In this document: piece by piece, positions 214 to 20,323 of the stretch
How the letters are laid out: each line of letters opens with the position of its first letter
How positions within the stretch are numbered: the stretch's first letter is position 1
DNA from: an uncultured eubacterium 1-6
GTDB lineage: Bacteria > Bacillota > Clostridia > Lachnospirales > Lachnospiraceae
Length of the DNA: 39,020 nt
NCBI GenBank assembly: GCA_903789595.1
Contig: CAIFEZ010000030.1
Location: forward strand, 1-39,020
Reading direction: 5' to 3'
The notes under the pieces: generated by a model
The model's database searches: none
Told to the model about the DNA's origin: nothing
The model's input: only the letters and a program-made list of their open reading frames with translations
Program-made: the position numbers and the translations under genes

Positions 214-399
214 ACTGTATAAGTCCAGTCGCAATGACAGAGACGGACTGCACACCCGAAGGGCGTGCAAGGCCGGCTATGGCTTTGCGACGACAACAGG
301 TATGAGCACGAAGGGACGCGTTAGCGGCACGAGAGTGCTCATACCTGTTAGCGGCACGGAAGCTGCGAAGCAGCGCAGTGACGCGGGGACTTATACAGT
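214..399. repeat. Foldback MITE-like element A
   Basis: Perfect 13-bp terminal inverted repeats, ACTGTATAAGTCC at 214-226 and GGACTTATACAGT at 387-399, bound a 186-bp element with no convincing gene. Inside is a second perfect 15-bp inverted repeat, AACAGGTATGAGCAC (295-309) against GTGCTCATACCTGTT (335-349). A related element lies in opposite orientation at 9396-9573. It starts directly at the T tract of the 175-213 terminator. Confidence 0.75.
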
Positions 400-2972: not shown

Positions 2973-4592
2973 ATGAGATATCTGATCAGAAGTACGGCGG
3001 TTTATGGCGGACACGAGGATCTGCCGAAGCCCGAGGCGATTCTGGTGGAGGATGAGATGATCCGGAAGATCCTCCCCTATGAGACGGATGTTGAGACGCT
3101 TCCGCCGGACACCACAGTTCTGGATTTCGGCGACAGGCTGGTGATGCCGGGCTTCATCGACGCACACACGCATTTTTTCACGGGAGCAATGGAGAACAGC
3201 GAGCATGTGTGCAGCGAGATTGCGGATTCCGTCTCCGAGGAGGACTGCGCACGGATCGTCGCGGAATACGCGGCGAAGCATCCGGAGGAACGGGTGATCC
3301 GGGGAAGCGGATGGTTTCTCCCGAAGTGGAAGACGACGGTGCTTCCCACGAAAAAAAGCCTGGACGCCGCGGTGCCGGACCGTCCGGTTCTGCTGAAGTG
3401 CGCTGACGCGCACAGCTACTGGCTGAACAGCGCGGCGCTCAGGCTCTGCGGCATCACGCCGGACATGAAGCCGGAGAGCGGCTCTGTCGGTCTTCTTCCG
3501 GACGGGGAACTGAGCGGGATGCTGATCGAGCCGGCCGCATATGAGCCCGCGGACAAGGTGTTCCGCACGTTTCCGGATGAGGAGTATCAGAAGATCATAG
3601 AGGATTTCGAGAAGGTGCTGGCCGGATACGGCATCACCGCGCTCAGCGAGATGTTCGCGCCGGATTACAATGAGGAGAACAGCCGCCTCTGCGAGATGAT
3701 TCATTCGATGGCGGAAGCGGACAGGCTGAGCGCGCATCTGTATTTGTTTCCGCGGCTGTTCGGCTACACGGATTTTTCCGCGGCGGAGAAATGGAAAAAG
3801 AAATTTGCCGGGAAGTGGTTCGATATCCCGGGCGTCAAGGGATTCCTGGACGGGGTGACGGAGACCTACACCGGTCTTCTTCTCGAGCCTTACACGGACC
3901 GCCCGGACACCTGCGGAATCGGAGTACCCCTGCGGGAATACGACGATGTAAAGCAGTCTGTCATCGCTGCAAACAGAGCAGGGTTTTCAGTCAGACTGCA
4001 CTGCATCGCGGACGGCTCCGTCCGGATGGCGCTGAATCTCTTTGAGGACTCGATCCGCGCCAACGGCGACAGAGATTATCACAATACGATCGAGCATATC
4101 GAAAATATAGATCCCTCGGATATCCCCAGGTTCCGGAGGCTTCATGTCATCCCGTCCATGCAGCCGGCGCATCTGGTTCTGGACGAGAACGGCAAGATCA
4201 TTCACATCGGAAAAGAGAGAATCCGTTATGAATGGCCGCTTCGCTCCATGGAGGAAGCGACCGGAGCTCTGGCGATCGGCACAGATTTTCCGGTGGTTGG
4301 CATCGATCCGTTCCGGACGATATACACCGCCGTCACACGAAAGGATTATCAGCACCGGCCGACCGGATTTAATCCGGAGGAAAAACTGACGATGCTGCAG
4401 GTTCTGTCCGGGTACACTTATAACGCCGCGAGGGCGTATCACATGGAAGACAAAATCGGAAGCCTGGAGGAGGGAAAATATGCGGACATCATCGCGCTGA
4501 AGGAGAACCTGTTCACCATGCCGGAAGAGGAGATTATGGACAATCGCGTCGTCTTCACGATGTGCTGCGGCAAAATCACGAAATCCGAATAA
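2973..4592 (+). CDS. Amidohydrolase family 3 (YtcJ-like)
   Basis: A metal-dependent amidohydrolase of about 539 residues, close to the usual 530-550 of the YtcJ/AepA group. The metal-binding DAHTHF motif lies near residue 65. Further family landmarks are GVKGFLDGVTE, the IEHIENID segment, IPSMQPAH and a C-terminal GTDFPV with its metal-ligand Asp. Members hydrolyse C-N bonds in cyclic or N-acyl compounds; the substrate cannot be read from sequence. Two starts compete: ATG at 2967 is only three bases from GAGG (2961-2964), whereas ATG at 2973 has proper spacing, so 2973 is chosen. It follows the kinase-like gene almost directly and is convergent with the luxR-type gene. Its tail leads into a stretch rich in GCGCAGAAACA-like repeats (4600-4720). 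Confidence 0.85.
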   Translation: MRYLIRSTAVYGGHEDLPKPEAILVEDEMIRKILPYETDVETLPPDTTVLDFGDRLVMPGFIDAHTHFFTGAMENSEHVCSEIADSVSEEDCARIVAEYAAKHPEERVIRGSGWFLPKWKTTVLPTKKSLDAAVPDRPVLLKCADAHSYWLNSAALRLCGITPDMKPESGSVGLLPDGELSGMLIEPAAYEPADKVFRTFPDEEYQKIIEDFEKVLAGYGITALSEMFAPDYNEENSRLCEMIHSMAEADRLSAHLYLFPRLFGYTDFSAAEKWKKKFAGKWFDIPGVKGFLDGVTETYTGLLLEPYTDRPDTCGIGVPLREYDDVKQSVIAANRAGFSVRLHCIADGSVRMALNLFEDSIRANGDRDYHNTIEHIENIDPSDIPRFRRLHVIPSMQPAHLVLDENGKIIHIGKERIRYEWPLRSMEEATGALAIGTDFPVVGIDPFRTIYTAVTRKDYQHRPTGFNPEEKLTMLQVLSGYTYNAARAYHMEDKIGSLEEGKYADIIALKENLFTMPEEEIMDNRVVFTMCCGKITKSE

Positions 4593-4767
4593 GGGATGCG
4601 GCGCAGAAACACGAAGCGCAGAGCGGCGCGCGGGAACGCAAAATGCAGAGCGCAGAAACATGATGCGCAAGGTGACGCTCGGAAATAGGAAGCGCAGCGC
4701 GCGGTCTCACGCGGTTTGTGCGGCCGCTTGCAGCATGACCGGTTCCTGGTATTCGCGCGTGCAGAAA
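4593..4767. repeat. Low-complexity spacer with degenerate GCGCAG repeats
   Basis: Between two convergent genes, variants of GCGCAGAAACA / GCGCAGAGCG recur several times (for example near 4601, 4619, 4651 and 4690). There is no clean terminator hairpin with a T tract on either strand. Confidence 0.4.
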
Positions 4768-5745: not shown

Positions 5746-5779
5746 AGAACCAGCAGTTAAATTATAACAGCACCGATAC

Positions 5780-5821
5780 AAAGGCGTATCTGTCATTCAT
5801 TATGGCGGATGCGCTTTTTTT
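5780..5821 (+). terminator. Attenuator-like terminator ahead of patA
   Basis: A 15-bp stem (5780-5794 with 5804-5818) contains four G-T wobbles and a 9-base loop, and is followed by seven T residues (5815-5821). It lies about 30 bases after the likely transcription start and 230 bases before the chosen patA start, so patA expression would need read-through. The upstream ATG at 5802 lies inside this hairpin loop. Confidence 0.65.
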
Positions 5822-9395: not shown

Positions 9396-9573
9396 TGTAT
9401 AAGTCCACGCAGTGTTTCGCTGCCTGGCAGCTCCCGCACTGCTAACAGGAATTCGCACTTTCGTGCCGCGTGCGCGTCACTTCGTGCTCATTCCTGTTGT
9501 CGTCGCTAATGCTCCTGGCCCACCGGTGAGCGTGCTCCCCGTGTGCCAGGAGCATTGCGACTGAACTTATACA
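9396..9573. repeat. Foldback MITE-like element C (inverted relative to A)
   Basis: TGTATAAGTCC (9396-9406) and GAACTTATACA (9563-9573) are the imperfect termini. The inner inverted repeats are AACAGGAAT..GCAC with GTGC..ATTCCTGTT, and GTCGCTAATGCTCCTGG with CCAGGAGCATTGCGAC. The inner stem has changed on both sides relative to element A (GGTAT/ATACC against GGAAT/ATTCC), so pairing is kept while sequence drifts. Confidence 0.7.
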
Positions 9574-9599
9574 TAAAAATAAGTATTCCCATTTTCAAA

Positions 9600-9616
9600 C
9601 TGTTCTTATAGAATAG
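9600..9616 (+). promoter_or_regulatory. Conserved glnN leader element (hairpin P1 and/or -10 TAGAAT)
   Basis: CTGTTC (9600-9605) pairs with GAATAG (9611-9616) around a TTATA loop, and the same element occurs ahead of asnB with a G-T to A-T change inside the stem. The overlapping TAGAAT (9609-9614) could instead be a -10 box with TTCCCA 17 bases upstream. The sequence alone does not separate the two readings. Confidence 0.5.
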
Positions 9617-9626
9617 GGAACTGATG

Positions 9627-9674
9627 ACAGGCAAAGATGCTTAATCATAAGAGCGTCTATGCCTGTCTTTTTTT
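9627..9674 (+). terminator. Attenuator-like terminator ahead of glnN
   Basis: The 15-base arm ACAGGCAAAGATGCT (9627-9641) pairs with 9652-9666 at 14 of 15 positions around a 10-base loop, and seven T residues follow (9668-9674). The 5' arm and the preceding AACTGATG are identical in the asnB leader; the 3' arm is not, although pairing is kept. Confidence 0.75.
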
Positions 9675-9676
9675 CG

Positions 9677-9763
9677 TGTATAAGCTCTTCGAAAACGCAG
9701 ACAGGCTCTTGCGCGCGCAGCTGATACAGTTTGCGGCTCGATGTACCGCATGGCCGTTTACTG
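9677..9763. repeat. MITE-like element D (short B-type copy)
   Basis: TGTATAAGCTCTTCGAAAACG (9677 on) to GCTGATACAGT (9720-9730), plus the ATGGCCGTTTACTG flank, repeats element B and its downstream flank. It begins three bases after the T tract of the glnN attenuator and separates that attenuator from the glnN ribosome binding site. Confidence 0.65.
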
Positions 9764-18503: not shown

Positions 18504-18526
18504 CCTCTTTGTTTTCAAAGAGGTGT
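18504..18526 (+). terminator. Likely gltBD terminator
   Basis: CCTCTTTG (18504-18511) pairs with CAAAGAGG (18516-18523) around TTTT, 28 bases after the gltD stop. The tail TGTTT is weakly T-rich, so termination efficiency is uncertain. Confidence 0.45.
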
Positions 18527-18527
18527 T

Positions 18528-18561
18528 TATGCTTTGATACTGTATATGCTTTGATACTGTA
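18528..18561 (+). repeat. Perfect 17-bp tandem duplication
   Basis: TATGCTTTGATACTGTA occurs twice back to back (18528-18544 and 18545-18561). Its end merges with TACTGTATAAG, the MITE-like terminus, and is followed by an imperfect foldback (GGATTGC with GCAATCC), so this is probably a decayed copy of the foldback element family. Confidence 0.7.
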
Positions 18562-18637
18562 TAAGTTACGGATTGCTCCGTGCTCCGCACTGCCGCAATC
18601 CTGCAGGATACTTTAAATTAAGTATTTTCAAAGGACC

Positions 18638-18656
18638 CTTATTCTTATAGAATAGG
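18638..18656 (+). promoter_or_regulatory. Conserved asnB leader element (hairpin P1 and/or -10 TAGAAT)
   Basis: CTTATTC (18638-18644) pairs with GAATAGG (18650-18656) around TTATA, the same loop and 3' arm as at glnN. The overlapping TAGAAT (18648-18653) has TTTTCA 17 bases upstream, the same TT--CA pattern as the TTCCCA box at glnN. Confidence 0.5.
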
Positions 18657-18665
18657 AAACTGATG

Positions 18666-18709
18666 ACAGGCAAAGATGCTTTCAGCAGAGTATCTTTGTC
18701 TGTTTTTTT
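18666..18709 (+). terminator. Attenuator-like terminator ahead of asnB
   Basis: ACAGGCAAAGATGCT (18666-18680), identical to the glnN arm, pairs along all 15 positions with 18689-18703 (two G-T wobbles). The loop is 8 bases and seven T residues end it. It is 27 bases before the asnB start, so asnB can only be made by read-through. Confidence 0.8.
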
Positions 18710-18736
18710 ATACTATAAAAGAAAGAGGATGAGATT

Positions 18737-20323
18737 ATGTGCAGTATACTAGCTTATTGCAGCGAAGGCGGATCGGAAGAAGCACTTGCCAGAGCCCTGA
18801 GAAAAACCACCTCACGCGGACCCGATGCTTCCAGACTGATCAACACAGAAAAGGGATTTCTCGGATTTAATCGTCTGTCTATCATGGGCCTCACACCGGA
18901 AGGCATGCAGCCCTTCGAGCTGAACGGCAATTACTGCGTATGCAATGGTGAGATATACGGGTTTCGTCCTCTGAAGGAGGAGCTGATCCGGAAGGGATAT
19001 ACCTTCCGTTCGGACAGCGACTGCGAGATTCTCCTCCCCCTCTATAAGGAATACGGAGTGTCGATGTTCCGCAGGCTGGACGCCGAGTTCGCGCTGGTGA
19101 TCTACGACGCGGATGCGGACGAGTATATCGCCGCGCGGGATCCGATCGGCATCCGCCCGCTCTATTACGGCTACGACAGCAGACACGTGATCCTGTTCGC
19201 CTCCGAGCCGAAGAACCTGATCGGCATCTGCGACAAGATCTACCCGTTCCCTCCGGGCACCTACTATAAGGACGGCGAGTTCCACACCTATCATGATCCG
19301 TCTTATGTCGGCGGGGATTACAGCCACGACGACGCGGAGACCATCAGCGCGAATATTCATGACAAGCTTGTCGCCGGCGTACAGAAGCGTCTGGATTCGG
19401 ATACGCCGGTCGGCTTCCTTCTCTCGGGCGGCCTGGATTCCTCCCTTGTCTGCGGAATCGCCGCAAAGATGCTGGACAAGCCCCTTGAGACCTTCGCCAT
19501 CGGCATGGATATCGACGCGATTGACCTGAAGTACGCAAGAGAGGTCGCGGAATATATTCACAGCAACCATCACGAGGTCATCATCACGAGGGACGACGTC
19601 ATCAACGCCCTGGATCCGGTCATCGCCGCTCTCGGGACCTACGACATTACCACCGTCCGCGCCTCCGTCGGCATGTATCTGCTCTGCAAGTGGATTCATG
19701 AGAACACCGATATCCGCGTCATCCTCACCGGCGAGATCTCCGATGAGCTCTTCGGGTACAAGTACACGGACTTCGCGCCGGACGCCGAGGCGTTCCAGAA
19801 AGAGGCGGAGAAGAGAATTCGCGAGATCAACGTCTACGACGTGCTCCGCGCGGACCGCTGCATTTCCGTGAACTCCCTGGAGGCAAGGGTTCCGTTCGGC
19901 GACCTGGACTTTGTGGACTATGTGATGCACATCGATCCGGCGAAGAAGATGAACACCTACGGAATCGGAAAGTATCTCCTGCGCCATGCCTTTGAGAAGG
20001 ACGCATGCATCCCGCACAGCATTCTGATGCGTGAGAAGGCGGCGTTTTCTGACGCCGTGGGACATTCTCTGCGCAACGACATCATCGATTATGCAAACAG
20101 CTGCTATACCGATGAGGAGTTCCAGGAGAAGATCCGGAAATACACCTATGTACAGCCGTTTACGAAGGAATCTCTTCTCTATCGCGAAATCTTTGAAAAG
20201 TACTACCCGGATCAGGATCAGCTGATTCCGGCATACTGGATGCCGAACAAGGAGTGGGAGGGCTGCGATGTGGACGATCCGTCCGCCCGCGTGCTTTCCA
20301 ACTACGGCGCATCCGGTGTCTGA
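18737..20323 (+). CDS. asnB: Asparagine synthase (glutamine-hydrolysing)
   Basis: A 528-residue enzyme converting aspartate, ATP and glutamine to asparagine. Cys2, exposed after loss of Met1, is the glutaminase nucleophile (MCSILAY); RGPDAS, NGEIYG and the SDCEI block complete that domain. The synthetase domain begins with the PP-loop LLSGGLDSS near residue 230, followed by GEISDELFGYKY. The length and pattern are close to E. coli AsnB (about 550). The start has AGAGGATGAG upstream. It carries the same leader as glnN, which fits shared control by glutamine or nitrogen state, since AsnB consumes the glutamine that GlnN makes. A strong terminator follows at 20455-20507. Confidence 0.93.
   Translation: MCSILAYCSEGGSEEALARALRKTTSRGPDASRLINTEKGFLGFNRLSIMGLTPEGMQPFELNGNYCVCNGEIYGFRPLKEELIRKGYTFRSDSDCEILLPLYKEYGVSMFRRLDAEFALVIYDADADEYIAARDPIGIRPLYYGYDSRHVILFASEPKNLIGICDKIYPFPPGTYYKDGEFHTYHDPSYVGGDYSHDDAETISANIHDKLVAGVQKRLDSDTPVGFLLSGGLDSSLVCGIAAKMLDKPLETFAIGMDIDAIDLKYAREVAEYIHSNHHEVIITRDDVINALDPVIAALGTYDITTVRASVGMYLLCKWIHENTDIRVILTGEISDELFGYKYTDFAPDAEAFQKEAEKRIREINVYDVLRADRCISVNSLEARVPFGDLDFVDYVMHIDPAKKMNTYGIGKYLLRHAFEKDACIPHSILMREKAAFSDAVGHSLRNDIIDYANSCYTDEEFQEKIRKYTYVQPFTKESLLYREIFEKYYPDQDQLIPAYWMPNKEWEGCDVDDPSARVLSNYGASGV

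Follow-up and report, generated by a model that had tools for sequence, protein, structure and literature searches.

In the ANTAR antitermination systems described to date with two hairpins (EutV/eut, NasR/nasF and AmiR/amiE; PMC3369931, PMC3369936), an A1/G4 hexaloop hairpin (P2) overlaps a terminator ahead of nitrogen-related genes in genomes that carry an ANTAR gene. Classical EutV antitermination requires both hairpins (PMC3369931), and dual stem-loops are also described in actinobacteria (PMC8164766). From the structure of EutV with RNA it was argued that the dimer fully contacts only one hexaloop, and the first hairpin was termed a recruitment site; on this basis the minimal motif was redefined as a single hexaloop and a bioinformatic search for such sites was requested, while the need for two hairpins, if the dimer fully binds only one, was left open (PMC8934654). 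NitR, an ANTAR protein of Clostridium saccharobutylicum, is reported to induce GS/GOGAT genes by antitermination upon nitrogen limitation (PMC6316151), and a similar ANTAR role has been suggested for C. thermocellum (PMC4676874). The glnA and Downstream-peptide RNA motifs likewise precede nitrogen genes (PMC2864571). Statements on the literature, here and below, refer to the portions of the cited reports that were available to us.

Here we describe leaders of glnN and asnB in a 39,020-nucleotide stretch of Lachnospiraceae DNA (the window), together with a wider family of such leaders in Clostridia. They share the A1/G4 hexaloop of the dual-hairpin systems, but they lack P1 and place a single hairpin a few bases from the predicted start site. 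With one hexaloop as the putative complete binding site, they resemble the minimal motif proposed in PMC8934654; that report expected single sites in settings free of the time constraint that ongoing transcription imposes, whereas here they lie within transcription terminators. We consider it likely that these leaders are a single-hexaloop, promoter-proximal variant of ANTAR antitermination that controls glutamine metabolism through putative protein binding. Beyond the GS/GOGAT genes reported for NitR (PMC6316151), the putative regulon here also takes in amt, asnB, purF, pyrG and glmS. In the mostly open-access literature that we searched, no title or abstract described single-hexaloop leaders before Clostridial nitrogen genes, although some sites may be present in the supplementary tables of PMC3369931.

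Two leaders with a shared core and strong terminators

A string search of the window located a 20-base core that is identical at 9621–9640 and 18660–18679; it had 0 matches in 100 shuffles of the window, and no third copy with up to three mismatches was found in the window or in the whole 3.66 Mb assembly, for which the nearest glnN relatives also suggest Lachnospiraceae. The first copy precedes glnN, which encodes a type III glutamine synthetase (PF12437; 9800–11920, + strand), and the second precedes asnB, which encodes a glutamine-hydrolysing asparagine synthetase (18737–20323, + strand). Both leaders run into strong intrinsic terminators on the + strand: that of glnN spans 9626–9674 (stem 9626–9667, then seven Ts) and overlaps the hexaloop hairpin described below, and that of asnB spans 18665–18709 (stem 18665–18704 plus the run of seven Ts), with z of −5.8 and −6.3, respectively, against 200 dinucleotide shuffles each. 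The preliminary description of this DNA had reported the common string, the strong terminators with seven Ts and the association with genes that make and use glutamine, and all three were borne out.

The search of related genomes that it had suggested yielded, in addition to the wider family in Clostridia, six further leader copies in three congeneric genomes; asnB follows three of them and glnN two, and the contig of the sixth stops short of the gene. In the terminators of the resulting eight leaders, from four congeneric genomes, the 5′ arm never varies and the 3′ arm does, just as had been noted for the two window copies. The 3′ arm was also said to have changed while still pairing: pairing is indeed kept, but by one-sided changes (e.g. 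G-C to G-U), with compensatory changes at 0 of 17 pairs. The 5′ arm is presumably constant because it must serve the hairpin, the loop and the terminator, whereas pairing is all that is required of the opposite arm.

The upstream element as a probable promoter

A TTATA-loop hairpin had been proposed upstream of the shared string. As an RNA element this hairpin was rejected, since its pairing and covariation in the eight leaders are no better than those of shuffled sequences (162 and 175 of 500 shuffles, respectively, do at least as well). Conservation resides in the sequence itself: (A/G)AGTATT and TTCTTATAGAAT stand at a fixed spacing of 15 bases, in the register of a sigma-A promoter, in all eight leaders from the four congeneric genomes, and the 15-base spacer between the promoter boxes varies in sequence among congeners. 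The ‘TTATA hairpin’ is therefore best read as promoter DNA. In the predicted register, the glnN promoter (9577–9614, + strand) consists of AAATAAGTATT at 9577–9587, a −35 box TTCCCA at 9586–9591, 17 bases, and a −10 box TAGAAT at 9609–9614 that sits inside the invariant TTCTTATAGAAT (9603–9614). The asnB promoter (18616–18653, + strand), its register likewise predicted, consists of AATTAAGTATT at 18616–18626, a −35 box TTTTCA at 18625–18630, 17 bases, and a −10 box TAGAAT at 18648–18653.

Each window promoter scores 9/12 and ends 14 bases before the hexaloop hairpin. Since 7.2% of shuffled family upstream regions reach 9/12, this score alone is modest and the promoter argument therefore rests on conservation. 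Judging from the sigma-A register, transcription probably starts near 9621 and 18660, just before the invariant arm. Other sigma factors were considered for the AAGTATT/TTCTTATAGAAT pair by comparison with their consensus sequences, and were dropped because the register equals TTGACA-N17-TATAAT.

A single ANTAR-type hexaloop hairpin

Within the invariant 5′ arm, each window leader contains one hexaloop hairpin, AGGC[AAAGAU]GCUU, at 9629–9642 in the glnN leader and at 18668–18681 in the asnB leader (both + strand), and its loop bears A1 and G4, the marks of ANTAR sites (PMC3369931). The preliminary description had stated that the hexaloop pair expected of ANTAR is absent and had favoured an attenuator outside ANTAR. 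The pair is indeed missing: no second A1/G4 hexaloop hairpin (P1) was seen upstream in the window leaders, which have no space for a classical first hairpin. One such hairpin is nevertheless present inside the invariant arm; this, the two ANTAR genes behind glutamine synthetase genes in the assembly and the way in which the family tracks ANTAR all speak against placing the attenuator outside ANTAR. The core of the earlier reading, a nitrogen-linked attenuator with an invariant 5′ arm that re-pairs in an alternative fold, is supported.

The window hairpin is identical in 8/8 congeneric leaders and hence lacks covariation support. It is short (four pairs, one of them G-U) and far weaker than the terminator and, when folded alone, it is predicted to gain an A-U pair, which would reduce its hexaloop to a tetraloop. 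At gathering score, Rfam gave no match over the + strand of either leader, low-threshold matches being below gathering scores, and none of its families, including glnA (RF01739) and Downstream-peptide, matched in nine loci of the glnN family. The leaders thereby differ from these two motifs, and a glutamine riboswitch was set aside on the same grounds.

A wider family of glnN leaders in Clostridia

Among 80 public glnN loci, a script flagged 40, several of them doubtful; 36 were curated by hand and 34 resolved, with 46 of the 80 loci falling outside the curated set. Because the curation pattern required A1, G4 and at least three stem pairs, both the conserved loop and the inner stem pairing of alignment A1 (32 of the 34 leaders, L060 and L107 having been dropped) are partly built in. 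Alignment A2 comprises 29 of these 32 (L037, L100 and L108 dropped). Promoter counts, and small-helix counts in matches to model R2 (see below), are independent of the curation pattern. A sigma-A promoter scoring at least 10/12 stands just before the hairpin in 31 of the 34 curated leaders, versus 1.0% of shuffles, with a gap of ~5–14 bases between promoter and hairpin.

In the 32 aligned glnN leaders the small helix is 95.6% paired, with double changes at 4 of 5 pairs, and the terminator helix is 97.5% paired, with double changes at 8 of 10 pairs. The two helices are mutually exclusive, yet both covary even though they share one strand. Model R2, built from 29 sequences, contains the promoter, the leader sequence and the terminator pairs, with the small helix left out of the structure, and was run on 61 genomes; since R2 contains the promoter, promoter presence in its matches is built in. 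The 51 distinct leaders found by R2 overlap the training set in one row (1/51). Their small helix is 90.7% paired and has 46 double-change cells versus 14.6 in shuffles. Four measures beat all 500 shuffles, and the number of pairs changed on both sides did not go beyond shuffles (334/500). Both A1 and G4 are present in 45 of the 51 rows; the other six lack A1 or G4.

Models R1 and R2, which were built without the window’s genus, do not recover the two window leaders. By gene, position and anatomy these would be a divergent sub-type of the family, an assignment helped by the canonical family form that precedes glnN in three congeners (G007, G009 and G012) and by the loop AAAGAU, which is also found in a classical leader with two hairpins (L280). 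Run on the window’s whole genome, R1 gave two matches with E of 1.0 and 1.4, one of them before a carbon–nitrogen hydrolase gene. In the same genome we noted GAC[AAAGGC]GUC with a terminator (L143, ~1504–1545) before a carbon–nitrogen hydrolase gene of the nitrilase superfamily (PF00795). The window itself holds a probable third leader, GATAC[AAAGGC]GUAUC, before a class III aminotransferase gene (5775–5821, + strand); its match is weak (13.7 bits, E 0.36 in the window) and its promoter scores just 8/12, and it has an overlapping terminator at 5784–5814 followed by seven Ts. No clean hexaloop was discerned by eye upstream of either glnA gene in the window’s genome.

Genes downstream of the motif

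In Clostridia, the arrangement of a sigma-A promoter, ~5–14 bases and one hexaloop hairpin overlapping a terminator was found before glnN, glnA-ANTAR, amt, gltB, asnB, purF, pyrG and glmS. The strong set consists of 50 R2 matches at E 1e-3 or better in the 61 genomes (L177–L226), and ammonium-assimilation or glutamine-using genes lie downstream in 40 of them: glnN (14), ammonium transporter with or without P-II (10), gltB (5), glutamate-synthase-type amidotransferase, purF, pyrG and asnB (2 each), and glnA, glmS and MurT (1 each). Because R2 was trained on glnN leaders the glnN count is favoured; the 26 other nitrogen matches are not. The remaining ten matches precede genes for a circularly permuted ATP-grasp protein, a PPDK_N protein, a serine dehydratase, a RelA/SpoT-domain protein, a LysR regulator, a periplasmic binding protein, a transposase, a MatE transporter, a chemotaxis receptor and a product without a Pfam match. 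Gene families were named from Pfam matches of at least one member per group and otherwise from sequence similarity, with glnN, gltB, asnB and glnA named by similarity to proteins of the window’s genome. Ten weaker or hand-picked matches (L227–L236) add glnA (3), glutamate-synthase-type (2), transporter (1) and ATP-grasp (1) genes; two of these ten (L235 and L236, from ANTAR-negative genomes) have unrelated-looking genes downstream and no hexaloop hairpin by eye.

Co-occurrence with ANTAR genes and alternative readings

Two ANTAR genes were found in the window’s assembly, and each immediately follows a gene for glutamine synthetase. In a hand tally of the 61 genomes, an R2 match at E 1e-3 or better was present in 28 of 45 genomes with an ANTAR gene versus 1 of 16 without. 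Class-wide, among 393 genomes (at least 90% completeness requested), 144 have both motif and ANTAR gene, 11 the motif only, 72 the ANTAR gene only (the window’s own genome being one of these) and 166 neither. An ANTAR gene thus accompanies the motif in 144 of 155 motif genomes versus 72 of 238 others (odds ratio 30), with the qualification that the Fisher values ignore relatedness, which inflates significance.

The dependence among related genomes leaves some room for a reader of the 5′-terminal hairpin other than ANTAR, be it another RNA-binding protein or RNA polymerase itself through start-nucleotide sensing, with the ANTAR co-occurrence reflecting shared ancestry; that 11 of the 155 motif genomes have no detected ANTAR gene points the same way. 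We nevertheless regard such a reader as unlikely given the strength of the motif–ANTAR association, the closure of the A1/G4 hexaloop by C-G, as in ANTAR sites, and the layout behind glnA: downstream of all four glnA leaders (L221, L227, L228 and L229) an ANTAR domain is encoded on the same contig and strand at a distance of ~1.7–1.8 kb.

The ANTAR gene lies just behind glnA in 19 of 20 motif-genome cases, the 20th being a contig-end piece without a recognised neighbour. For comparison we took 20 ANTAR loci that are the best PF03861 scorers among motif-negative genomes. Here 9 of the 20 genes are just behind glnA, and at several of the comparison loci one hexaloop precedes glnA, so the label ‘motif-negative’ in part covers leaders that the model failed to detect. 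EutV Tyr164 stacks on G4 (PMC8934654); at this position the 20 motif-genome proteins have His (17), Phe (2) or Tyr (1), and the receiver aspartate is absent in 18 of them. Both ANTAR proteins of the window’s genome have His at the Tyr164 position and no receiver aspartate. The comparison proteins have Tyr or Phe in 20/20 and the aspartate in 16/20, a contrast that leans towards classical proteins because this set was picked for high PF03861 scores. A His likewise aligns at this position in AmiR. Of the other RNA-contact residues, Met172 is kept in all 20 motif-genome proteins and in both proteins of the window’s genome, and Arg142/Lys147 are often changed. At seven loci (L263, L266, L267, L269, L271, L272 and L274) a single hexaloop precedes glnA and the ANTAR protein has Tyr or Phe and, mostly, the aspartate; the single-hairpin form may reach beyond His-type ANTAR proteins.

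Known ANTAR systems need P1 (PMC3369931), and the leaders could in principle be classical dual-hairpin ones, with P1 supplied by the TTATA hairpin or some other upstream hairpin and with the promoter lying further upstream. A second upstream hexaloop was indeed detected by the dual-motif scan in one of the 60 R2-hit loci (L194). This reading appears improbable to us: the TTATA hairpin has neither an A1/G4 hexaloop nor covariation beyond shuffles, and in the 60 bases upstream of the 34 family leaders 0 C-G-closed A1/G4 hexaloops were seen against 0.6 expected. In the comparison set the dual-motif scan turned up five such motifs, spread over 4 of 20 ANTAR loci, versus none in the 20 motif-genome ANTAR loci; since it does detect dual motifs elsewhere, the lack of a first hairpin does not stem from insensitivity of the method. 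Downstream of the 34 leaders, second hexaloops were in excess (7 seen, 2.1 expected); inspection revealed mostly three-pair matches near or inside the gene, and the excess was discounted. In L096 and L102 a tandem-looking second hexaloop hairpin follows the terminator, ~70 bases after the first.

An unregulated terminator with fixed leakiness, serving as a constitutive short-RNA or transcription-damping element, would accommodate a window hairpin that is so short, invariant and much weaker than its terminator. We deem this very unlikely, as the wider family keeps the terminator-excluding helix by compensatory changes, for which a plain terminator has no need. Recent duplication, whereby the likeness of these neighbouring and nearly identical leaders would be paralogy without function, is hardly credible, since the congeners retain leaders at both glnN and asnB, with a 15-base spacer that varies.

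Proposed mechanism

In the single-hexaloop antitermination model that we prefer, transcription would start from a sigma-A promoter, with the small A1/G4 hexaloop hairpin following within a few bases. By default, part of this hairpin would re-pair with downstream RNA to form the intrinsic terminator, and the transcript would end at ~50 bases. An active ANTAR protein, encoded behind glnA, would bind the hexaloop as it exits from the polymerase and stabilise the small hairpin; the hairpin thus held would block the terminator and permit readthrough into glnN, asnB and the rest of the glutamine regulon. The signal would probably arrive via a partner protein, as suggested by the fact that motif-linked ANTAR proteins mostly lack the receiver aspartate; AmiR is signalled through its partner AmiC (PMC8934654). 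Glutamine synthetase, encoded just upstream of the ANTAR gene, would be the natural candidate by virtue of this operon linkage, though this is conjecture.

More tentatively, and with somewhat less than even confidence, we propose that these leaders represent a widespread ANTAR class of Clostridia that dispenses with the recruitment hairpin: the 5′-end hexaloop would be caught during promoter escape by a His-type pseudo-receiver protein gated by glutamine synthetase, providing one switch for making and spending glutamine (glnN, glnA, amt, gltB, asnB, purF, pyrG, glmS and MurT). The many natural single-hairpin leaders within transcription terminators make the puzzle of the two EutV hairpins directly testable. 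They also indicate a broad glutamine regulon, spanning ammonium assimilation and glutamine-using enzymes, in anaerobic gut and rumen Clostridia, whose nitrogen control we consider poorly known.

Other elements near the leaders

The only Rfam matches in the window above the gathering threshold are two Clostridiales-1 RNA elements (RF01699), both outside the leaders, at 220–393 (+ strand) and 9400–9569 (− strand), the latter adjoining the glnN promoter upstream on the opposite strand; a sub-threshold match (37.9 bits; 18560–18712, − strand) lies opposite the asnB leader. A 17-base repeat in two tandem copies occupies 18524–18557, between gltD and asnB. A dispersed G+C-rich repeat (ACGCGAACAGTGAGCCGCAGCCGA...) recurs in the genus (L144, ~1550–1640; L145, ~4640–4740, − strand) and directly follows the leader T-run in two congeners (L009 and L013).

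Finally, an AAATRAGTATT element recurs at a fixed distance before the −10 box, at 9577–9587 and 18616–18626 in the window and at L145 ~4323–4333 (− strand), G000:C4:54501 and C26:3650; one glnA gene of the window’s genome, too, has the element at this distance from a −10 box. Elements of the AAATRAGTATT type with a −10 box gave five matches in the genome versus one for the reversed control, and in this genus AAATRAGTATT may serve as a second nitrogen control site, at the DNA level.
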